A DNA stretch of 43,728 nt from Pseudomonadota bacterium (GTDB lineage Bacteria; Pseudomonadota; Gammaproteobacteria; Steroidobacterales; Steroidobacteraceae), in assembly GCA_947453065.1 (NCBI GenBank), contig CANGFJ010000003.1:1-43728 (forward strand), written 5' to 3'. How positions within the stretch are numbered: the first letter of the stretch is position 1; the number at the start of each line of letters is the position of its first letter. The notes under the pieces are model-generated. The model saw only the letters and a list, made by a program, of their open reading frames with translations, was not told where the DNA came from and did no database searches. The translations under genes were made by a program, and so were the position numbers. Positions 3,392 through 38,100 of this stretch are shown here, in pieces.

Positions 3392-4585
3392 CTAGAGATC
3401 CAGGCGCCCCTGCTCGGGGCGCCTGTTTTCCAGGTCCAGCGCATCAATCAGCGCTGGAATCTGGTCCCGCACTGCAGAGAATCCTTTCGTGGCGTGCGGC
3501 CACACCCGGGCGTCATACGTCCGGCGCAGCGGCATCAGCCGCAGCTTGCGCATCGCGAGCCAGTTACCCGCATCCGACAGGGCCTCTTCCACCGGTCCCA
3601 CCGGCGCGCAGGCCGTCACCACGACACTCGCCCCCAGGCGCTCGGCCCATGCTGCCATGGCATCGCCATCCAGCGCAGGCAGCCGTTCGGCAGGCTGGCC
3701 AAACCATTCACTGGCACGCGCCATCGCATCAGCCAGCGCACCTTCCCCGAACGCCTCCCCCTGCGCGGATACAGGCAGCCCGACGGCATCCCTGGAGACA
3801 CGAGCGCCGGCAATACCCCGCACTTGGTGGCGGTCCAGGCCGAGACTTTCCGGATGCAGGTCCTCTTCGGTCAGCAGCAGGACAACAGGTCCAGCCGGCG
3901 GCTGGTTGCCGAGCCTGGGCAAGGCACGCTGCGGATGCGCCAGACGTTCCTGCAGGGGTGCCGCGTGTTCCTGCAGGCCCTGCGGCGCAAACCGCCCGCC
4001 CGTGCAGGCCTCGATGTTGGCGGCGCGGGCCAGATAGTGTTTGCCGACGGTGTGCAGCCCGGCGACCCAGCGCCAGGACAGGGTGTTGGAGGCCGGATCG
4101 GCATCCAGGAAATGCCGGTAGAGGAACTCTGCACCCAGCGGCCAGGGCAGGCGCAGCGTGAAGATCCAGATCGAGGCAAACCACATGCGCGCGTGATTAT
4201 GCAGATAACCAGTGACCTGCACTTCTGCCACCCACGCATCGAAACAATCGATGCCGGTGCGTCCTGCGGTGGCTGCCGCATAGTCCGTGGCCAGCGACTG
4301 GTCATGGGTCAGCTGTTGCTGTAGCGACAGCACGGTCCTGCGGTACTCACGCCACAGAGAAGGCCGCGCTTCCAGGTACCCTTTGAAGTAACCGCGCCAG
4401 AAGACTTCCTGGACGAACTTCTCTGCCGCCTGCGGCGTGTGTTGCGCCAGGACACTGCGCAGCAGTTCCTCTTCGGTGACCAGGCGGCGGCGCAGCCAGG
4501 GTGAGAGCTGCGAGACGTTGTCGTGATGCCCAATGCCGCGGTCTTCATTGCGCGTGGCCGCATAGGACTTGCCCGCACGCGGCAC
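3392..4585 (-). CDS. Photolyase/cryptochrome FAD-binding-domain protein with N-terminal FAD domain
   Basis: NVSQLSPWLRRRLVTEEELL...FVQEVFWRGYFKGYLE...GYLHNHARMWFASIWIF...FLDADPASNTLSWRWVAGLHTVGKHYLARAANI matches the photolyase FAD-domain signature. Frame stays open upstream to about 4663, so the true start may be upstream of GTG 4585. Confidence 0.8.
   Translation of the reverse strand: MPRAGKSYAATRNEDRGIGHHDNVSQLSPWLRRRLVTEEELLRSVLAQHTPQAAEKFVQEVFWRGYFKGYLEARPSLWREYRRTVLSLQQQLTHDQSLATDYAAATAGRTGIDCFDAWVAEVQVTGYLHNHARMWFASIWIFTLRLPWPLGAEFLYRHFLDADPASNTLSWRWVAGLHTVGKHYLARAANIEACTGGRFAPQGLQEHAAPLQERLAHPQRALPRLGNQPPAGPVVLLLTEEDLHPESLGLDRHQVRGIAGARVSRDAVGLPVSAQGEAFGEGALADAMARASEWFGQPAERLPALDGDAMAAWAERLGASVVVTACAPVGPVEEALSDAGNWLAMRKLRLMPLRRTYDARVWPHATKGFSAVRDQIPALIDALDLENRRPEQGRLDL
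3401..3429 (+). terminator. Rho-independent terminator downstream of ligM-like gene
   Basis: CAGGCGCCCC-TGCTC-GGGGCGCCTG followed by TTTT: perfect 10-bp stem, 5-nt loop. Lies inside the 3' end of the convergent photolyase-like CDS. Confidence 0.8.
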
Positions 4586-4646
4586 GAAGGCAGCGATGCG
4601 CCGCAGCCCCTCTGCGCGGGTCGGCGCGAAGGGGCTTAACGGTTCG

Positions 4647-5459
4647 TCAGACGTAGCGACGCCTCAGCAACTCGGCAGCCGACACGTCGAGCAGGTCGGC
4701 ACGACGCACTTCCTCGAAGCGGGCCAGCAGGTCTTCCGGACGCAGGCGGCGTTTTTCGGCACCACTGAAGTCCTGGATGATCTTGCCGCGATGGAGCATG
4801 ACCAAGCGGTCGCCATAGGTCACGGCCTGCTGCATCGAATGCGTCACCATCATGGTCGTGAGCCGGTCGCGGGCCACGATGCGGTCGGTGATGCGGATGA
4901 CCTGCTCGGCGCTGCGCGGATCCAGCGCTGCGGTGTGCTCATCGAGCAGGAGCATGCGCGGCTTGAGCCAGGTGGCCATGAGCAGGGTCAGGGCCTGTCG
5001 CTGGCCACCGGAGAGACTGCCGATGGCGTTGTCGAGACGGCTTTCCAGGCCCATGCCCAGGGTCTTCACGGTGTCGAGCATCTGCTGGCGCAGTCCGCCG
5101 CCCAGTGCCGGCGTCAGGCCACGCACTTTGCCCCGGCGCGATGCCAGCGCCAGGTTCTCGGCAATGGACAGGTGCGGTGCCGTGCCGCTGAACGGATTCT
5201 GGAAGACGCGGCCCACCAGCGAGGCGCGCTGGTGTTCGGGCCAGCGCGTCACGTCGTGGCCATCGATATCGATACGGCCTTCGTCCACGTAGAAGCCACC
5301 GGCCACGGCGTTGAGCAGGGTCGACTTGCCGGAGCCGTTGCTGCCAATGACGACGACAAACGAGCCTTCTTCAATCTTGAGGTTGATGCCCTGCAGCGAG
5401 CGGACTTCGTTGGCCGTGCCGGCGTTGAAAGTCTTGCGGATGTTCTGGACGTCAAGCAT
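4647..5459 (-). CDS. ABC transporter ATP-binding protein (COG1101-like, partner of TrpX-type systems)
   Basis: Walker A GSNGSGKST, signature LSGGQRQAL, Walker B MLLLDEHTAALDP; follows the permease with an 8-bp overlap. Confidence 0.9.
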   Translation of the reverse strand: MLDVQNIRKTFNAGTANEVRSLQGINLKIEEGSFVVVIGSNGSGKSTLLNAVAGGFYVDEGRIDIDGHDVTRWPEHQRASLVGRVFQNPFSGTAPHLSIAENLALASRRGKVRGLTPALGGGLRQQMLDTVKTLGMGLESRLDNAIGSLSGGQRQALTLLMATWLKPRMLLLDEHTAALDPRSAEQVIRITDRIVARDRLTTMMVTHSMQQAVTYGDRLVMLHRGKIIQDFSGAEKRRLRPEDLLARFEEVRRADLLDVSAAELLRRRYV

Positions 5460-6390
5460 GACGGGCCTCCGTGGGGGTGCGCAGACGGAGCTTCTTGATC
5501 AGGCCCGGTGACACGAGCGCCAGGAACACAAAGCCGGCAGTGATCAGCTTGAGGTCATTCGGGTCCAGGCCCCAGCGCAGGGCCACCGCCACGAGCAGGC
5601 GGAACAGCACCGAGCCAAAGATGGCGCCAGCCAGTAGGTGGCCCAGCTTGCCCGTGCCAATCAAGGCCTCGCCAATGATGACGCTGGCCAGGCCCCAGAC
5701 GAGCATGCCGATGCCCATCTGCACGTCGGCAAAGCCCTGGTACTGCGCCAGCAGTGCACCGGCGAGCGCGACCAGTCCATTGGACAGCGCGAGGCCGGCG
5801 GTGATCATGTTGCCGTCGCTGGCGCCGAGCGCACGGATCATCTGCGGGTTATCACCCGTGGCGCGCATCGCGGTGCCCAGGTGCGTGCGGAAGAACGCGA
5901 GCAAGGCGACCGCCACGGCCACCACGAACAGCAGCGTAACCGTGAGCACGGCGAGGTCGTTGACCGGCACCGGTCGACCGAGGAAGCGCACCGTCTCGCC
6001 CAGGCCAGTGGCTGCGCCCAGTTCACCCGCCCAGGTGACGAAGGTAGCCACCGACATCATTGGAATGTTGCTGCGCCCCATGATGTGCAGGTTGATGGAG
6101 TACAGCGCGGTCATCACGAGGATGCCGGACAGCAGCCCGTTGATCTTGAACCGCGTGTGCAGGATGCCGGTCACCGCACCGGCCGCCGCACCGGCCAGCA
6201 CCGCGATGGCCGTGGCGACCGCCGGGTTGTAGCCGTGCACGATCAGCGCCGCGGACACCGCAGCACCCAGCGTGACCGTGCCTTCGGCTGTCATGTCGGG
6301 GAAGGTGAAGATGCGGAAGCTGATCAGCACGCCGAGCGCAAGCAGCGACAGGATGATGCCGATCGTCAGGGCACTGAGCACCAGGCTCAT
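5452..6390 (-). CDS. ABC transporter permease (BPD_transp_2 / COG4120-like)
   Basis: Multi-TM protein starting MSLVLSALTIGIILSLLALGVLISFRIFTFPDMTAEGTVTLGAAVSA; ATG 6390 gives an ATGA overlap with the upstream gene. Confidence 0.87.
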   Translation of the reverse strand: MSLVLSALTIGIILSLLALGVLISFRIFTFPDMTAEGTVTLGAAVSAALIVHGYNPAVATAIAVLAGAAAGAVTGILHTRFKINGLLSGILVMTALYSINLHIMGRSNIPMMSVATFVTWAGELGAATGLGETVRFLGRPVPVNDLAVLTVTLLFVVAVAVALLAFFRTHLGTAMRATGDNPQMIRALGASDGNMITAGLALSNGLVALAGALLAQYQGFADVQMGIGMLVWGLASVIIGEALIGTGKLGHLLAGAIFGSVLFRLLVAVALRWGLDPNDLKLITAGFVFLALVSPGLIKKLRLRTPTEARHA

Positions 6391-7664
6391 GGCTGTTCTC
6401 CGGTAATGGCGACCAGCGGGGCGATCCACATCGCGCCACGGGTGAACCGACTTTCGATGCGTTCGCCCGGTTCGCGGTCATCGGCCAGCAGGTGCAGGAC
6501 CGACTCGGGCGTATCGCGTTCAAACAGCGGCAGCACCGCCTGCGACACCTGCAGCAGGCCGCGCTGCAAGGGGCGGAAGCGGAACGCAGCGGCGTGCACA
6601 TGCCCCAACTGCCCATCCTCGGCACCGAGGGGACGCAGGTAGGGGACCAGTGGTGCAGCCACATCCTGCGGCTGGGCCACGACGCCACAGGCCACCACCG
6701 ACATGCGGGCATGGGCCGGCTCTGTCGTGAAGGAGAGCCAGGTGCGAACGTCCGGGAAGGCGAGCGGATCGTCGCCGGCGGTCTTGGTGGCCGGTGAACG
6801 GCGCAGGCTCGCGCCGATCATGCCGGCGGATTCCGCGGCAATGACCACACACGCCGCGGGCGTTGCCGCCAGCTCGAGTGACAGGTCGATGAGCTCAGAG
6901 AGCGTGACGTGATCGCCCTCGGCATTGGGCTCGAAACGCACCAGCTGACTATAGGCGCCCGTGCAGCGCAGGCCGTAGAGCGCCTGCATGTCGGGCACGT
7001 AGTTGCCCTGGCTGAGCAGGGTGTCGCAGCTGTTGGAGCCATCGGCGGGCAGGCAGGCGGCGGCCCCTTCCACGGCGAGAAACTCGCCGAACCGACCCTG
7101 GCACTCGGCGAAGTCCGCACCAAATGCACCCAGCCCCAGGGTGACGCTGTGCGCGTCAATCGCGAGCTTGTGCGCATCGCTTGCGGCATACACGCGGTCA
7201 CTGGAATCCAGTGGCGCGCCAAAGCTGTGGCAGTTCATGCCTGAACCGGGCAGCGCGTAAACCTCATACCGTGCGGTACCGCGCTGCAGTTCGCGGGGGA
7301 GGACCGGCGGCGGCGCCGTGGTCGGCGTTGCGGCAGAAGGCGCCGCGGCGGCCACGGGCGCGGTGGCGGTCATCAGCAGCGTGGCGATGCCGGCCATCTC
7401 CAGCACCGTCAGCACATTGCCGGTGGGGCCCGCAATGACGAAGCTACCTTTGACCGTCTTGAATTTCTTGTAGGCACTGACCAGCACCCGGATGCCCAGG
7501 GAACTGACGTAGTCGATGCCTTCCATGCGCAGGCAGACGCGGTCGCTGCCCACGCGCATCAGGTCATCGAGCGCACGCGACAGGTGATCGGCCCAGTAGC
7601 CGTCAAGACGGCCCACCGCAATGAGTTCGGTGACGTCGCCAGATTGTTGGGTCGTGATTTCCAC
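6387..7664 (-). CDS. STAS domain fused through an Ala/Pro/Thr-rich linker to a C-terminal domain of unknown function
   Basis: N-terminal STAS (VTELIAVGRLDGYWADHLSRAL...MEGIDYVSSLGIRVLVSAYKKFK) with phosphorylatable Ser motif; linker AAAAPSAATPTTAPPPVLP; about 270-aa C-terminal region not recognised. Confidence 0.8.
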   Translation of the reverse strand: MEITTQQSGDVTELIAVGRLDGYWADHLSRALDDLMRVGSDRVCLRMEGIDYVSSLGIRVLVSAYKKFKTVKGSFVIAGPTGNVLTVLEMAGIATLLMTATAPVAAAAPSAATPTTAPPPVLPRELQRGTARYEVYALPGSGMNCHSFGAPLDSSDRVYAASDAHKLAIDAHSVTLGLGAFGADFAECQGRFGEFLAVEGAAACLPADGSNSCDTLLSQGNYVPDMQALYGLRCTGAYSQLVRFEPNAEGDHVTLSELIDLSLELAATPAACVVIAAESAGMIGASLRRSPATKTAGDDPLAFPDVRTWLSFTTEPAHARMSVVACGVVAQPQDVAAPLVPYLRPLGAEDGQLGHVHAAAFRFRPLQRGLLQVSQAVLPLFERDTPESVLHLLADDREPGERIESRFTRGAMWIAPLVAITGEQP

Positions 7665-7679
7665 TGACTGCTCCCGCGA

Positions 7680-8735
7680 TCAAGGCGACTGGGGTTGAAC
7701 GTGCTCGCCGTCTTTGTCGATGAGCAGATTGGCCTTGGCGGCAACCTCTGCCGGCACCCGCCATTTGCCGCCGAGATACTCGAGGGTCTTCAGGTTCAGT
7801 GCGAATTTGGCCGGTGCACGATTGACCACTTCGACGGTGCGCAGGTCGCGTCCACCCAGGACTTCGGCGGCGAGCTCGCCGACTTCCGTGCCAACGGCGA
7901 CGTAGTCCGCACCCAGGTCAAACAGGGCACCGGACTTCACATTGGGCGGGATCACGGTGAACACCGGGATGCCGCCGCGCTTGCCGGCGGCCACGACCGC
8001 ATCAACGGCGACCAGCACCACCACGTCGCCCGTGATGAACAAGGCGTCTGCACCGCGGGCGACCAGCGAACTGGCCGCTTCACCCACATCCTGCGACGCC
8101 TCGGCATTGGCCTCGAGCAGTTCCAGGCCCAGCTCGGCGCAGGCTTTGCGGGCGGCCACGGTATAGGCCTTGGAGTTGGTTTCGGCCGTGTGCCACACGA
8201 GCCCGACCTTCTTCATGCGCGGATTGAATTCCAGCGCCTGCTTCATGGCCTTGTCGACCGGCGCGAACACGCCATAGCCGGCCAGGTGCGCCGGGTGGTC
8301 GAGGGGATCTTTGTTGATGCCGACGCCGGCGCCGGCAGGGTCGGCAACCAACCCGAACAGGTGCTTGATCTTGCCCTGGCGGTTGGCGTTGGCGACCGTC
8401 TGCATGGAGACGGTGCTGGCCGTGATGACCATGTCGTAGCTGCCGTCGGTGGCCTGACGGGCGATGTTGTTGGCCGTGGCCAGGTCGCCCTGTGCATTGA
8501 AGCGTTTGACGGTGATGGTCTGGCCATCGATGTAGCCATGCTTGGCCAGACCCTGGACAAACCCTTCGACGCCTTCATCCAGCGCACTTTGGGAAGCCTG
8601 CTGGATGATGGCAATGTTCGGCAGGCGTTTGGCGACCGCATCCGTCTTGCCGGTGCCGTCGGCGTTGATCAGCACGCCGACCACGACGGCAATTAAAACG
8701 ATGGCGATCAGAAAGGGGCGGATAAATTTTTTCAT
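7680..8735 (-). CDS. ABC transporter substrate-binding protein (TrpX-type, ABC_sub_bind)
   Basis: N-terminal signal/anchor; PNIAIIQQASQSALDEGVEGFVQGLAKHGYIDGQTITVKRFNAQGD is typical of COG2984; start overlaps upstream stop (ATGA). Confidence 0.88.
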   Translation of the reverse strand: MKKFIRPFLIAIVLIAVVVGVLINADGTGKTDAVAKRLPNIAIIQQASQSALDEGVEGFVQGLAKHGYIDGQTITVKRFNAQGDLATANNIARQATDGSYDMVITASTVSMQTVANANRQGKIKHLFGLVADPAGAGVGINKDPLDHPAHLAGYGVFAPVDKAMKQALEFNPRMKKVGLVWHTAETNSKAYTVAARKACAELGLELLEANAEASQDVGEAASSLVARGADALFITGDVVVLVAVDAVVAAGKRGGIPVFTVIPPNVKSGALFDLGADYVAVGTEVGELAAEVLGGRDLRTVEVVNRAPAKFALNLKTLEYLGGKWRVPAEVAAKANLLIDKDGEHVQPQSP

Positions 8736-9148
8736 TTCAGGCTCTTCGTCATACGCAGCTGGTTAAGGGTGCCGGTGTGCTGATAGGTCACTTCATCCAT
8801 CAGCTCGCGCACGAGGAAGACGCCGAGGCCTCCGACAGGCCGCTCTTCGATGGGCGCATTCAGGTCAGGGGAAGGCAGGGAGAGCGGATCGAAAGCCGGG
8901 CCGTCATCTTCGATGACCAGCGCGGCCTGTCCGTCATCCCAGGAGAGTCGCAGCGTCACGCGTGGGACGGGCTGCCCCGGGTGCGTGCCGTGCATGACGA
9001 CGTTCATGAACACTTCTTCGAGCGCCAGCTCGAACGGGAACGCCCCTGCCGGCGGCAGCTGCGCGTCGTTCCAGAACTGCTGCAGGAACTCCGTGAGCGA
9101 CTGCAGCTGGGCTGCATCGCTCACCACGCACAGGCTGCGTTCGATCAC
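8732..9148 (-). CDS. RsbW-like anti-sigma regulatory kinase (HATPase_c)
   Basis: N-box ELALEEVFMNVVMHG, G1 VIEDDGPAFDP, G2 VGGLGVFLVRELMDEV; GTG 9148 start overlaps the STAS stop (GTGA). Confidence 0.87.
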   Translation of the reverse strand: MIERSLCVVSDAAQLQSLTEFLQQFWNDAQLPPAGAFPFELALEEVFMNVVMHGTHPGQPVPRVTLRLSWDDGQAALVIEDDGPAFDPLSLPSPDLNAPIEERPVGGLGVFLVRELMDEVTYQHTGTLNQLRMTKSLK

Positions 9149-9492
9149 GCAGCAGGCGTGCCGAGGTGGGTCAGCGCAGCAGCGGTGTCGGCATGGATCT
9201 CGAGGATGCGGGTGAAACCGCTGACATCGAACACTTCGCGCACCGAGGCCTGCAGACCGCAAGCGATGAAGGGAATGTTGGCGGCCTTGGCGGCGCGGGC
9301 AGCCACCAGGAAAACGCGCAAACCGGCGCTCGACACGTATTCAAGCTGGGCGCAGTCGACGACCAGCGCGGCAGGCTTCTGCGCGATGACCTCTTCGAGC
9401 TGCTGCTGCAAGCCGGCGGCGGCGCCGAAATCAAGACGTCCCTGGGGACGGGCCACGGTCGCCGCGGTGGCGGTTTCGAAAGTCACGTTCAC
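9145..9492 (-). CDS. STAS domain anti-sigma factor antagonist
   Basis: VARPQGRLDFGAAAGLQQQLEE...LVVDCAQLEYVSSAGLRVFLVAARAAKA, classic STAS with conserved Ser. Confidence 0.9.
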   Translation of the reverse strand: MNVTFETATAATVARPQGRLDFGAAAGLQQQLEEVIAQKPAALVVDCAQLEYVSSAGLRVFLVAARAAKAANIPFIACGLQASVREVFDVSGFTRILEIHADTAAALTHLGTPAA

Positions 9493-9519
9493 GTTAGGAT
9501 CCTCCGGGAATCTGGGGTA

Positions 9520-10170
9520 TCAGCAAATGGGGGCGAGGAAGGAGCGGGCAATCTGTTCCTGCTCATCACGCAGGGCTATTTCGACGCCCTTGGCGATGAG
9601 GTCGATGCCACCAATCTGCTCGATGCGGTCATCGAGCCGGGCGATTTCGGCCGTCGTGAGGAAGCCTTCCAGCACCCCGCCGACGCGCGCGAGGCCAAGC
9701 AGGACCGTGTCATGCGGCGTGGGCAGGTCATTGCCCAGCAGGGTCGAGAGGATGCGCAGCTTGGCTTCCTTCTGCTCGGCGCCATCGATGAGCGGATAGC
9801 GGCGTGATTTGAGCACCCACAGGAAACGCGATTCCTGCTGCGCGAGGATGCCGCGCTGGGCGAGCGAACCCAGCGCCAGGCGCACGATCTCACCGGACAA
9901 CGGGGCCAGCTGGCGCACCCACTGGGACACGGGCTTTTCGGGACCGGCGGCCACCAGGGCCAGCACGCGGTCGATGGCCGCATTGCCCACGGGTTCCTGC
10001 GACAGTACGTGGACGGCGTCCAGGTCGGCGTCGATGCGGCCGGCGTTGTTCAGTTCGACCAGGCAGGCCCCGATGGCGCTCATGCGAAAGCCGCTGCCGC
10101 CCGCCGTAAAGGCCACGGAGCCATCGTCAGCGATCGTCAGCAAGACGAGTTCTTCGATCAGGTTGACCAT
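9520..10170 (-). CDS. GPP34 (Golgi phosphoprotein 3-like) family protein
   Basis: NLIEELVLLTIADDGSV...ACLVELNNAGRIDAD...LSQEPVGNAAIDRVLALVAAGPEKPVSQWVRQLA...LWVLKSRRYPLIDGAEQKEAKLRILSTLLGNDLPTPHDTVLLGLARVGGVLEGFL fits the GPP34 pattern. Confidence 0.75.
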   Translation of the reverse strand: MVNLIEELVLLTIADDGSVAFTAGGSGFRMSAIGACLVELNNAGRIDADLDAVHVLSQEPVGNAAIDRVLALVAAGPEKPVSQWVRQLAPLSGEIVRLALGSLAQRGILAQQESRFLWVLKSRRYPLIDGAEQKEAKLRILSTLLGNDLPTPHDTVLLGLARVGGVLEGFLTTAEIARLDDRIEQIGGIDLIAKGVEIALRDEQEQIARSFLAPIC

Positions 10171-10267
10171 GTGTCTCTCACTGCAGCGGGGCGCGCCATC
10201 GCAGGCGCTGGGAAGCGCATGATGCTATCCAATTGCACCGACCTGCACGCGACCCGTTGTCTGGACA

Positions 10268-11860
10268 TTAGTCCAGATTGGACGTAACGGGGGACAGTCG
10301 GCGCAGCATCCAGAGAATACGTTCGAACAGCAGCGTTGCCGAGAGCACCGACTCGCGACCGCCAATGCTGCTGCCACCGCCCAGCAGTTCCTGGCGAACC
10401 CGGTCCATCAGGGCACTGCGCTCGGCAGTCAGCTCATGCAGCAGCGCGAGGTCGTCCTCGGTGGCGTTTCGGGCGACATCGGCGGCCACCATCAGGATGG
10501 CGTGCAGGCCCTCGACCATGTGGGCGGCAAAGGGCGGGCGTTGCGCCTCCGGAACCTGGGCAAGCTGGTTCGTGAAGTCCTGCAGGGCGGACTGCAGCGT
10601 CTGCAGGGCCAGGACTCGGCTGCGGGCCTCAAACACCTGCTGGATTTCAGTCATCTCCGGGTTGGCGCGCACCATTGAGCCCAGAAAGTCCTCGATATCC
10701 TTGGCCACCGAGGCGCTGGCCGCACTGCGCTGGGCCAGCGGCAGGGCGTTGGGTGCCCGTTCTTCGACAGGTCGCAGGTCATCGAGGAAGTCGGGCAGAA
10801 AGCCGACCAGGCGGGCGTGTTCCAGCTGGGCCAGCGACAGGGCGGTTGCCGGGTCCTCGACGGCCTCATCAAACAGATAGGCCGGCTTCATCAGCAGTTG
10901 CGCCGTAGAGGGGGGCGACAGGCGGGCCGTCAGGGACAGGAGGGGCTTGTCCAGGACAGCCGCCATCGTGGCCACGACCAGCTGGAACAGGAGATAGGCC
11001 ACGCCACTCTGCGTCATGGGCGAATCGGCCACGTGACGCAGGCCGGCCAGCACCAGCGGCACCCCGGTCGATTGCTCAATCAGGAACAGGGGCACCAGCA
11101 CGGCGGCAGCCAGCACGCGAAGCAGGGCCTGGCACAGCGCCAGCTGGCGTGAAGTGCCTTCCATGCCGGAGGCCAGCAGCAGGGTGGCAAAGCCAGATCC
11201 GACGCTGGCACCGTAGATCATCATGATCGTGTGGTCGAACGTCAGCAGCCCTTCGTTGACGAGCGGCAGGGCAAGGACCGTGACGATCGACGAGGACTGC
11301 ACGGCAACGGCGATGATGAACCCAGCCAGGAAGCCGACCGCCGAGTTGGAGCCGGAAAACTCGACAAATTCGCGGATCCACGGGTTGCTGCGCAGGTCCG
11401 CAACACTGTCCTTGAGCAAGGAGAGGCCAAACAGCAGCAGGCCAAGGCCCAGCACCGCCAGTACCGCATGGCGCGAGCGTTCCGCCTGGTCAAGGCCTGC
11501 AAAGAACGCGCAGCCGGTAGCAGCCAGCAAGTACAGCACCAGAGTGCGCAGATCCACCGCCGCCAGCAGTACCAGCACGGACGTGCCCACATTGGCCGCA
11601 GCCAGCATGGCCAGCGCAGCGGCCAACCCGAGACTGCCGGCGCTCACGAGGCCGGTGGCAATGAACGTCGAGGCACTGGTCGACTGGGTCAGTGCGCCAG
11701 ACAGGAAACCGGCCAGCGGCGGGACCAGCGGGCGATCGAAGGTGCGAGCCAGCAGGCTACGGATGCGGCCGCTGGCCAGCTGCTGCAGGTGCGAGCCCAC
11801 CAAGCGCATGCCGACAAAGAACAGGCCGAGCCCTGCGGCTGCGGCAGAAGCCGTGTTCAT
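10268..11860 (-). CDS. Na/Pi cotransporter family protein with C-terminal PhoU-like helical region
   Basis: Duplicated QSTSAS and QSSS motifs typical of PNaS family; long helical C-terminus; ATGA overlap with upstream gene. Confidence 0.87.
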   Translation of the reverse strand: MNTASAAAAGLGLFFVGMRLVGSHLQQLASGRIRSLLARTFDRPLVPPLAGFLSGALTQSTSASTFIATGLVSAGSLGLAAALAMLAAANVGTSVLVLLAAVDLRTLVLYLLAATGCAFFAGLDQAERSRHAVLAVLGLGLLLFGLSLLKDSVADLRSNPWIREFVEFSGSNSAVGFLAGFIIAVAVQSSSIVTVLALPLVNEGLLTFDHTIMMIYGASVGSGFATLLLASGMEGTSRQLALCQALLRVLAAAVLVPLFLIEQSTGVPLVLAGLRHVADSPMTQSGVAYLLFQLVVATMAAVLDKPLLSLTARLSPPSTAQLLMKPAYLFDEAVEDPATALSLAQLEHARLVGFLPDFLDDLRPVEERAPNALPLAQRSAASASVAKDIEDFLGSMVRANPEMTEIQQVFEARSRVLALQTLQSALQDFTNQLAQVPEAQRPPFAAHMVEGLHAILMVAADVARNATEDDLALLHELTAERSALMDRVRQELLGGGSSIGGRESVLSATLLFERILWMLRRLSPVTSNLD

Positions 11861-12555
11861 GCGCGGGCAGACCTGTCATTCAGTACCCGCCACAGCAGGG
11901 TGCCAATCAGCAGCAGGGCCACACCCATGGCGATCCACAGCAAATGGGACAGGGTCTTGAAGCGTTCGTCGTTGGCCACCATGGCACGGTCGTTCACCTG
12001 AAAGGATTCACTGGCCAGCAGCAACACGGCCTCATCGACGTCGGCATTGAGCTGGCGGTCAATGCCCCGCACCGCGCGGTCGATGGCAAACGGATCCCAG
12101 GCCTGGCGCGCGCCGTTGGCGAGTGCTGCACGGTACTTGTCCTGCAGCTCCAGGTGCTCTGCGGAGAGTTGCGTGATGCGCGGTGGAATATCCTTGATTC
12201 CCAGCTGTGCGGAACGCCGGCTGACGGAATTCAGCAGCGTCTGGACCGTAACGCCTTCGCGCTCGAACGCGCCCAGGTGTCTGGCAAGGTCGCCGGCATC
12301 GGATCCACGCAACAGGATGTTCTTCCACTCCTGCACCTGGGTCTTGAAATGGGACTGTGCCGACCGGCCCTCATCGACTGTCTGGATCAGTTCGGTGAGC
12401 TCGCCCGTGTTGCGGGCATGGGTACGGTTCAGCGACCAGACAGCAAACAACGCGAGCAAACCCACTGTCAGCAGGGTGAGCAGGAGCAGGCTGGCCAACT
12501 GCAGGAGCGAACGGCGCAGGCGCGCGCGATCGGCGGCCGAAGTGGGTGAGGACAT
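11857..12555 (-). CDS. Membrane-anchored helical-bundle sensor-like protein (MCP periplasmic domain-like), no cytoplasmic output domain
   Basis: N-terminal TM (LLQLASLLLLTLLTVGLLALFAVW), about 150-aa helical region, C-terminal TM (LLWIAMGVALLLIGTLLW), then a short tail. Start ATG 12555. Confidence 0.6.
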   Translation of the reverse strand: MSSPTSAADRARLRRSLLQLASLLLLTLLTVGLLALFAVWSLNRTHARNTGELTELIQTVDEGRSAQSHFKTQVQEWKNILLRGSDAGDLARHLGAFEREGVTVQTLLNSVSRRSAQLGIKDIPPRITQLSAEHLELQDKYRAALANGARQAWDPFAIDRAVRGIDRQLNADVDEAVLLLASESFQVNDRAMVANDERFKTLSHLLWIAMGVALLLIGTLLWRVLNDRSARA

Positions 12556-35192: not shown

Positions 35193-38100
35193 GGTGCTGC
35201 CTTCCCGCGGAACTCGTGGTCCAGCGCCTCGATCAGGGCGCGGGGCGGGCAATCCCGGTAGATTCCGTTCGACGGCGTACCAATGCCACGTGCAAACACA
35301 TAGATTGCGCCACCAACGTGACAATCGTAGTCGTAGCCGGGCAGGCGGCTGCGGAGCAGTCGGTGCAGCGCCAGCAGGTACAGGGTGTATTGCAGCTCGT
35401 AACGGGAGGCGAGCACCGCCTCGGCAAGGCGCGGCGGGCTGTAGTCGGCGAGCTTGTTCGACTTGTAGTCGAGCACGTAATAGCGCCCGCCGGACTCGAA
35501 GACCAGGTCCAGGAAGCCGGTGAGCTGGCCGTGCAGGTCGTCGGTGGCGAGGGACTCGCGATGCGCGCCGGGCTGGACGTGGGTCTGCAGCAGCCGGTCC
35601 ACGGCGCCGACGGACACGCCGTTTGTCGGGAGGACAAACCCCATCTCGGGCCAGGCGCCGGCGAGCGCCGCGAGGGCGGGCACCGGGTCGGCACCCGGCA
35701 CGGGCGAGGCGCCGAGCGGGCAACCGGCGAGCGCCCGGACCCAGTCGCTGAGGCGGATGGCGTCTGCGGCCTGAAGCCCGAGCAGGCCGGCACGTCGGGC
35801 GACAACGGCTGTCCAGGCGGCCTCGTCGGCAGGGTCTACCTCGCCGGTGGCGACGATCGGCCAGCCCGCCTCAAGCTGCCATTCGAGCAGGCCGTGGAGC
35901 AGCTCGCCAAAGCGGGCACCGCCGCCCAGGTCCTGGTAGTGGCCGACGTGGTCGAGCGGGGACGGCGGGGTTGCGAGCGCGTCCGTGTCGTCGGCATCGT
36001 CGTCACGGGCGTCGACCTGCGACTTGGCGAAGCGGTCGTCGGCCTCGGAGCCGGGTGCCGGCACCGCGCTGGCGCTCGGGTGGGCGAGCCCGCGAGTCAG
36101 CGCGGTGAAGCTGCTGCTGCGCCAACGGCTGACATGCCGGCGACGGGGTTCAGCGACCTGGTGGACGGTGACCGCCACGGCATCGGGCTCGAACCGGGCA
36201 AGGTCCGCGGTCGGCAGCGCGGCGACGGCGATGTGTTGGCAGCTCGCCCAGTCGGCCAGCCGCGTCGACAGGTCGGCAACGTCCTGGCGGCCAAGAAGTT
36301 GGGACAGGGCCGCCTTCGGCCAGGGCACGCCCTTCTTGCTGGGGAAGTCGCCGTTGCGGGTGGCGGCGCCCACGAACAACGCCCGCTCGGCGCGGGTGAA
36401 GGCGACATAGAGCAGGCGCACGTCCTCGGCCAGACGCTGCACGTCATTTTCATCCACATCGCCCTTCTTGGCGGCGCGGAACTCCTGAGCGAAGGGCACG
36501 AACACAACCGGGTACTGCAGGCCCTTGGACTTGTGCATCGTGATGACCTTCACGAGGCTGGCATCGGTCTCCAGCCGCAACTGGGCCGCCCCTTCGTCCT
36601 CGGGCCGATCGCGTATCTGCTCGGCCAGGTAGCGCACGACCGCCGCCTCGCCCTGCAAGTGGAGGCTGGCCTTCTGCAGCAGGTCGCCCAGGTGCAGCAG
36701 GTTGGTGAGCCGGCGCTCGCCCAGATCGGTATCGACCAGCAGCCGTGCCGGAATGCGCTGGTCGTGCAGGACCGCGTAGAGCATCGCGAGCAAACCCTGC
36801 TTCTGCCAGACCTGCTGCCAGCCTGCAAAACGCTCGGCTTCCTGCTCAAACCGAATGTCGTCGGCAAAGAGGCGGTCGAGGTCTTCAACGCGGTGTTTGA
36901 AACAGCGCGTCGCGATCGCCGCGCGCAGGGCCGTCATGGAACGCGGCTCGGCCACGGCGCGCAGGAGGTACCAGAGGTCCATCGCCTCGTCGGTGGCATA
37001 GACGCTGTCGCGGTCAGAGAGATAGACGCTGCGCACGCCGCGGAGGGCCAGCGCCTGGCGGATCTGCTGCGCGTCCTTGCCAGTGCGCACGAGCACGGCC
37101 ACCTCTGCAGGGGCCATGATTTTCGCGTTAAGCATCGTGACGATTTGTGTGGCGAAACCCGCGGCCAGCTCGGCGCGGGCTTTCAGCGCAGGCTGGGCAC
37201 CCGCCTGGCCGGTATGCCACACCGTCATGGCCGGTAGCGGCGTGCCCTGCGCATCCCACAAGGGCTCGACGGCCTTGCAGGCCACGACTTCAGAGTATCC
37301 GATGTCGCCAAGCAGATGCTGCGCGCGCCCGAAGATGAAGTTGACCGCATCGACCAGGCCCTGGGTAGAGCGGTAATTGCCGTTCAGCGTGTGGAGGCCG
37401 GCCGCGTCCTCGCGTGCGCCGAGATAGGTGTCGAGGTTGGCGCCGCGGAAGCGGTAAATCGCCTGCTTGGGGTCACCGATCATCACCAGCGATGCGGGCG
37501 TGGGGTGTGGGTCGCGGTAGATGCGCGCGAGCGCGCCGTACTGCCACGGATCGGTGTCCTGGAACTCGTCGACCAGCGCCACCGGATAGAGCTGGCGGAG
37601 ACGCGCTGCCAGTACGGTGCCGCGCTTGGCGTCATGCAGGGCCGCGTACAGGCGCTGCAGCAGGTCGTTGAAGTCGAACTGCGCGAGCCGGGCCTTGCGT
37701 TCAGCCAGCGCGCGGCGCAACTCAACCGCGGCGTGGGCCAGCAGTGGCTCGATGCCCGGGGCTTCGCCGCACTCGACGACCTGCTGCAAGACCACGAACG
37801 CGGGATGCTCGGGCACCGTGCACTTTTTCTTGGTGCGCGCCCGGAGTGTCTCCTGGGCGTAGCGACCGATGCCCTTCGCATCCAGGGTCGCACCCTGGCT
37901 CCAGTCATGCATCACCTGCAGGTCGGCGTCGTACTTCTCGCGCTTGTACGAACTGGCGTTGAGGTCTTTGCCGACGGCAACGCCCAGCACCTCGTCGATG
38001 CCTGTGCGGTCCGCACGCCAGGCCTCACGCGCCTTGCGCTGCGCCGCTTCAAAACGCTGCGACCAGTCGCGTACACGCGCGAGCCAGACATCGGGCGCCT

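Follow-up and report, generated by a model that had tools for sequence, protein, structure and literature searches.

Why would a complete ATP-binding cassette (ABC) importer share a gene cluster with the kinase and STAS proteins of a partner switch, a GPP34 protein and a sodium/phosphate (Na/Pi) cotransporter-like protein? Such a cluster lies at positions 3392 to 12555 of a 43,728-nucleotide stretch from a Steroidobacteraceae bacterium (GCA_947453065.1, CANGFJ010000003.1). This stretch, here called the window, makes up contig C3 in its entirety; the draft genome to which it belongs (G000) comprises 2.75 Mb in 260 contigs. We propose, with a probability of roughly one half, that the cluster encodes a two-module partner switch acting at the membrane, which would be driven by a chemosensory system and would set importer activity through an MlaB-like STAS subunit. 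The strongest signal comes from this subunit, a STAS fusion protein, rather than from GPP34.

Results

The initial annotation described ten consecutive genes as a single membrane signalling and transport system. All ten open reading frames (ORFs) are present on the minus strand, in the order and at the coordinates it gave, and the overlapping junctions are exact (ATGA at 11857-11860, GTGA at 9145-9148, ATGA at 8732-8735 and at 6387-6390, and an 8-bp overlap, ATGCTTGA, between the permease and ATPase genes at 5452-5459). The remaining gaps measure 97 bp between the Na/Pi and GPP34 genes, 27 bp between GPP34 and STAS, 15 bp between the substrate-binding protein (SBP) and the STAS fusion and 61 bp between the ATPase and a photolyase-like gene. 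Nine of the ten family assignments are borne out by Pfam or NCBIfam (FAD_binding_7, ABC_tran, BPD_transp_2, STAS, ABC_sub_bind, HATPase_c_2, STAS, GPP34 and Na_Pi_cotrans); the exception is the first gene, the presumed sensor, for which no convincing family match was obtained. In the open literature searched, which left subscription papers aside, no paper describing such a composition was found, as had been supposed.

A scan of one genome per species returned seven related loci (L034-L040). The nine genes other than the photolyase-like gene recur in identical order in L035, L036 (genome G011) and L037 (genome G175), which together with the window makes four genomes; G011 and G175 lack the photolyase-like gene. 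Judged by gene order and protein sequence, the nine-gene arrangement is not due to chance, because it is identical in these three loci at 45-80% protein identity, with flanks that differ from those of the window. When 198 genomes of the order were searched, only the window's genome, G011 and G175 were found to have the STAS fusion in full length; two other searched genomes of the window's genus gave no match. The L037 contig (CALQLF020000038) is labelled Candidatus Planktophila lacus (Actinomycetota); it matches G175, which belongs to the window's family, and is probably a misnamed bin.

By their gene content across these loci, the nine genes are two conserved modules: module 1, which consists of the SBP, STAS fusion, permease and ATPase, and module 2, which consists of the sensor, Na/Pi protein, GPP34, free STAS and HATPase. 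Of the proposed ten-gene system, the conserved co-occurrence of nine genes stands, whereas its unity gives way to two separable modules with the photolyase outside. L034, the closest locus by sequence (70-86% identity for fusion, permease and ATPase), consists of module 1 alone (SBP-fusion-permease-ATPase), and its genome, G962, carries module 2 separately as L171 (sensor-NaPi-GPP34-STAS-HATPase). The order in L040 is GPP34-STAS-HATPase-SBP-fusion-permease-ATPase, and the same order is seen in L039, where the contig starts inside GPP34. A rearranged version, L038 (labelled Bryobacterales), encodes HATPase, double SBP, fusion, permease, ATPase, STAS, GPP34 and STAS. The window, L035-L037, L039 and L040 thus have HATPase and free STAS clustered alongside module 1, as does L038 in rearranged form. 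STAS and GPP34 are also adjacent in G983 (L175), away from module 1. The features of the window are as follows:

11857..12555, minus strand: module 2, short membrane protein without output domain (the sensor of the initial annotation); no Pfam family; kept in L035, L036, L037 and L171
10268..11860, minus strand: module 2, Na/Pi cotransporter-like protein; PF02690 twice, above the NF037997 cut-off
9520..10170, minus strand: module 2, GPP34 (GOLPH3/Vps74 homologue); Pfam and profile match
9145..9492, minus strand: module 2, stand-alone STAS protein; phosphosite motif YVSSAG
8732..9148, minus strand: module 2, RsbW-type kinase (HATPase_c_2); N, G1 and G2 boxes kept
7680..8735, minus strand: module 1, membrane-anchored TrpX-family substrate-binding protein (COG2984 type); hydrophobic N-terminal stretch 1-30
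6387..7664, minus strand: module 1, STAS fusion (STAS plus acetolactate-decarboxylase/PTD012-like domain); Pfam and AlphaFold fold matches
7365..7664, minus strand: STAS domain of the fusion; 20/20 homologues have Ser54-Ser55 (codons 7500-7505)
6402..7295, minus strand: C-terminal domain of the fusion; no Pfam family; H355, H357, E194 and D214 invariant
5452..6390, minus strand: module 1, ABC permease (PF02653, COG4120 type); Pfam
4647..5459, minus strand: module 1, ABC ATPase (COG1101 type); Pfam
4650..4685, minus strand: ATPase C-terminal tail with L265 and Y269; common to 19/19 STAS-associated ATPases, absent from seven STAS-less ones

With the full-length STAS fusion as query, matches to other STAS domains overwhelmed the phylum-wide search, so that the C-terminal domain was used by itself. 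With this query, the fusion was detected in 11 of 297 genomes of the phylum of the L038 genome, L038's own included; this second group is probably Acidobacteriota. At 12 further second-group loci the fusion adjoins the permease in every case and the SBP and ATPase in nearly all, the exceptions being L112, which has no recognised SBP, and L111, which ends before the ATPase; L116 and L117 are divergent, a single ORF there encoding both permease and SBP. All 20 aligned fusions adjoin ABC genes. A search of 196 gammaproteobacterial genomes revealed no STAS fusion at eight other TrpX-type permease loci, and a plasmid search returned only an unrelated STAS gene in a type VI secretion system cluster of Aureimonas. 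Because module 1 recurs alone in L034 and at the 12 second-group loci, some TrpX-type ABC transporters, probably in two phyla, appear to have the STAS fusion as a constant subunit. Tandem TrpX-type substrate-binding domains in a single ORF were seen in L038 (8006-9991) and also in L106-L111.

The first 100 residues of the fusion match SpoIIAA, RsbV and MlaB by sequence or fold, and the SS-x-G phosphosite is kept in all 20 fusions. Besides S54 and S55, residues H355, H357, E194 and D214 are invariant in this alignment, and H391 is present in all but one truncated copy. The C-terminal domain has no Pfam match. Two AlphaFold models of moderate confidence (pLDDT, the predicted local distance difference test, of 71 and 79), built from two different query sequences with the same eight homologues, have the fold of acetolactate decarboxylase and PTD012 (E 2e-5 and 3e-7). 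For the second model, the top 15 PDB matches all belong to the acetolactate decarboxylase/PTD012/PPC fold, and the best match outside it is weaker by two orders of magnitude (E 6e-2). Decarboxylases carry GLG-T-F, then a GE motif, and HxH, and the HxH and the Glu of the GE motif are kept in the fusion. The three-His metal site does not have decarboxylase spacing, as the next conserved His follows HxH at +34 residues versus 11 in the aligned decarboxylases. Homology to the decarboxylases at the sequence level is not significant (hhalign E 0.06), and a profile search of the PDB returned no match. As the profiles do not match significantly and the third His is placed differently, we claim for this domain a predicted acetolactate-decarboxylase-like fold and no enzyme activity. 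The domain was also considered as a PP2C phosphatase, the enzyme missing from the cluster, and rejected in view of its structure matches to acetolactate decarboxylase and the lack of a Pfam match.

Other STAS fusions were seen in these genomes. A STAS-TCAD9 protein of ~750 residues is encoded in the window's genome (L083:2413-4674, contig C191) and, 50% identical, in L037 (17016-19325), where its gene lies ~4 kb downstream of the nine-gene cluster; the protein could be a further STAS target of the same kinase. G011 encodes a STAS domain fused to an APH-type phosphotransferase domain (L183:168-1370).

With regard to the transporter itself, the SBP, BPD_transp_2 permease and ABC ATPase genes are adjacent, as in TrpX-type importers (COG2984/4120/1101), and the permease is not of the MlaE type accompanied by an MCE protein. 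The SBP is related to the solved chains 6hni, 3lkv and 3lft and reaches 144 bits with the tryptophan SBP equivalog NF041285, for which the cut-off is 390. The best reading is an amino-acid-type importer, the class of substrate being one that we infer. L265 and Y269 in the ATPase tail are invariant in 19/19 STAS-associated ATPases, and the tail is absent from 7/7 STAS-less TrpX-type ATPases. A tree of the ATPases places the STAS-associated sequences of gammaproteobacteria together with L038 and L107, with fork support below threshold, and the STAS-less sequences fall within the STAS-associated set on long branches; the tree therefore does not settle a single origin.

In module 2, the Na/Pi-like protein is 59-61% identical to its counterparts in relatives, the SS-x-G phosphosite of the free STAS protein is kept in 7/7 sequences, with a phosphorylatable Ser, and the kinase keeps the N, G1 and G2 boxes of the RsbW/SpoIIAB type. 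One strong RsbW-type kinase match each was found in G000, G011, G175 and G962, and the one in G000 is the HATPase of the window. No PP2C/SpoIIE phosphatase gene lies within the cluster. Strong SpoIIE-type matches number one in G962, one in G175, two in G000 (one of them in a 150-residue frame) and several in G011. In G962, module 2 (L171) converges, 262 bp apart, on a cluster encoding CheA, a methyl-accepting chemotaxis protein (MCP), CheR, CheB, CheX and a receiver-SpoIIE phosphatase. Orthologous CheA/MCP/CheR/CheB/receiver-SpoIIE clusters are located on other contigs of G000, G011 and G175, with phosphatases 69-76% identical, and in G961 a Na/Pi gene comes immediately after a receiver-SpoIIE gene. 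On these sequence comparisons, the receiver-SpoIIE protein of the chemosensory cluster is a candidate for the missing phosphatase of the window's system. A long ORF after GPP34-STAS in L038 (14508-18542) resembles by eye a CheB-CheR hybrid, which is another hint of a chemosensory link. The sensor gave no match to the MCP encoded in its own genome, and the idea that it duplicates the ligand-binding region of that protein was rejected.

GPP34 significantly matches Vps74/GOLPH3 by profile (E 5e-12) and belongs to the GPP34 family. The residues of GOLPH3 that bind phosphatidylinositol 4-phosphate (PI4P) are W81 and R90 (PMC13408441). Neither has a counterpart in our GPP34 alignment; the link to eukaryotic phosphoinositide binding drawn in the initial annotation is not supported, and GPP34 as a PI4P binder was rejected. 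We infer instead a role as membrane adaptor, which is helped by the finding that GPP34 heads long membrane-protein-like ORFs elsewhere (L055:7601-9514 and L056:7435-9327, both in G011; L058:8171-10213 in G386). Judged by eye from the sequence ends, the C-terminal parts of two of these ORFs resemble an MFS-type (major facilitator superfamily) transporter and that of one a cytochrome P450.

The photolyase-like gene (3392-4585, minus strand) had been counted as a member of the cluster. In view of the 61-bp gap that precedes it and the lack of a homologue at the related loci, we rejected it and regard it as a bystander. The sole Pfam match in its product is the FAD-binding domain at residues 57-190, placed first and followed by ~200 residues without match, a domain order that appears unlike ordinary photolyases. 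The sole tRNA in the window is a tRNA-Arg (gcg) at 36328-36406 (plus strand), and an Rfam search of the window gave no match.

Discussion

The reading of the locus as an importer wired to a phospho-switch is a sound one, in that ABC importer and partner-switching genes co-occur and are conserved across relatives. In the mechanism that we propose, the STAS fusion, as a constant fourth subunit, would dock on the ATPase as MlaB does on MlaF, aided by the ATPase C-terminal tail, and would govern assembly or the activity of the ATPase. An intracellular ligand or metal is the probable binding partner of the fusion's acetolactate-decarboxylase-like domain, which might report substrate status. Module 2 would provide the RsbW-type kinase and the free STAS protein, together with GPP34, the Na/Pi-type transporter and the small membrane protein. 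The kinase would phosphorylate the fusion at Ser55 (or Ser54) and the free STAS protein at the equivalent Ser; the free STAS protein would compete for the kinase, and the receiver-SpoIIE phosphatase of the distant chemosensory cluster would reverse this phosphorylation. Extracellular signals could thereby open or close the importer, and probably also the Na/Pi transporter, while GPP34 may hold the switch at the membrane. More tentative is the wider idea that the chemosensory array controls both transporters post-translationally, with CheA-type signalling acting through the receiver-SpoIIE protein and the RsbW-type kinase on STAS phosphorylation in the ABC transporter and with GPP34 as the membrane anchor.

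Several observations weigh against this mechanism. In MlaF, the C-terminal extension is ~25 residues long and its terminal helix sits at the interface with MlaB (PMC7367683), whereas the ATPase tail described here extends only ~6 residues beyond the STAS-less form. The tail could be a lineage trait, and three of the seven STAS-less control ATPases are very divergent; because the tail is short and the controls are few, the parallel with MlaF is suggestive only. Only in G962 does the chemosensory cluster lie next to module 2, in a comparison that covered genomes carrying the cassette. Lastly, at nearly all second-group loci and in L034, neither a kinase nor a free STAS gene lies beside module 1, which means that the STAS subunit may work without phosphorylation there.

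Because module 1 mostly has no neighbouring kinase, the main rival is an unphosphorylated regulatory STAS subunit. The fusion would then be an MlaB-like stabilising importer subunit that senses a ligand for feedback, and module 2 a separate switch sharing the operon in some lineages as both serve the same nutrient response. We consider this possible, if doubtful: the two modules lie apart in G962 and MlaB itself is without experimental evidence of phosphorylation (PMC7367683), but an invariant phosphosite in every aligned fusion and the repeated clustering of HATPase and free STAS with module 1 speak against it.

It is less likely that the locus encodes a transcriptional switch, in which the HATPase would be an anti-sigma factor, the free STAS protein its antagonist and the surrounding genes a regulon or uptake reporters, so that the importer would be an expression target outside phospho-control. 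The HATPase and STAS proteins do resemble RsbW and SpoIIAA/RsbV, and such pairs classically act on a sigma factor. However, no sigma factor gene lies next to module 2 at any locus read, the genomes as a whole not having been searched for sigma factors, and the STAS fusion sits within the transporter operon even where no kinase is nearby. One sigma-like gene, judged by eye, is located near module 1 in L108. Chance, or lineage hitch-hiking of unrelated genes kept together by common descent, is very improbable and already refuted for module 1, since, although L035, L036 and L037 share flanks and hence are not independent, flanks differ among the window, L035-L037, L039-L040, L038 and the second-group loci, L038 is rearranged yet linked, and module 1 is intact at the second-group loci.

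If the wider chemosensory idea is correct, the cluster would encode an ABC importer with a STAS subunit of its own, whose phosphorylation on Ser opens or closes it. Whether STAS proteins control ABC transporters by phosphorylation becomes directly testable here, and bacterial GPP34 gains a signalling context.

The system shares parts with several known ones. The same three transporter components are found in TrpX-type importers (COG2984/4120/1101; S. suis TrpX, PMC9382623), but here the SBP falls below the TrpX cut-off, and the eight other gammaproteobacterial TrpX-type loci lack the STAS fusion. As in SiaABC and HsbR-HsbA of Pseudomonas (PMC7647112, PMC6482189), a kinase, a STAS protein and, here as a candidate, a PP2C/SpoIIE phosphatase occur outside a sigma-B type stress operon; the known outputs of those systems are a diguanylate cyclase, or RpoS and biofilm, rather than an importer, and they have no GPP34 or STAS-ABC subunit. 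IcfG-Slr1856-Slr1861 of Synechocystis likewise ties a partner switch to nutrient (inorganic carbon) status but is reported to act via the sigma factor SigC (PMC12329169). At the level of single proteins, the fusion resembles acetolactate decarboxylase/PTD012/PPC proteins in structure, HxH and the Glu of the GE motif and differs in the spacing of the third metal His, whereas GPP34 resembles GOLPH3/Vps74 in profile and differs in the PI4P residues. The closest comparison is with MlaFEDB, in which a STAS subunit is also encoded with an ABC transporter, and with which the position of the STAS phosphosite and an ATPase tail with Leu and Tyr are shared; a phosphomimetic at this site in MlaB, Thr52, weakens MlaF-MlaB binding, and in the PDB as it then stood the MlaFB study found no further STAS-ABC pair (PMC7367683). 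Unlike MlaFEDB, the present system combines a BPD_transp_2 importer with a TrpX-type binding protein in place of MlaE/MCE, its STAS domain is fused to a 300-residue acetolactate-decarboxylase-like domain, its ATPase tail is shorter, and a kinase, a free STAS protein and GPP34 are encoded in the operon. A second ABC class, unrelated to Mla, thus appears to carry a STAS subunit, probably in two phyla, with a kinase, a competing STAS protein and a candidate phosphatase in reach.

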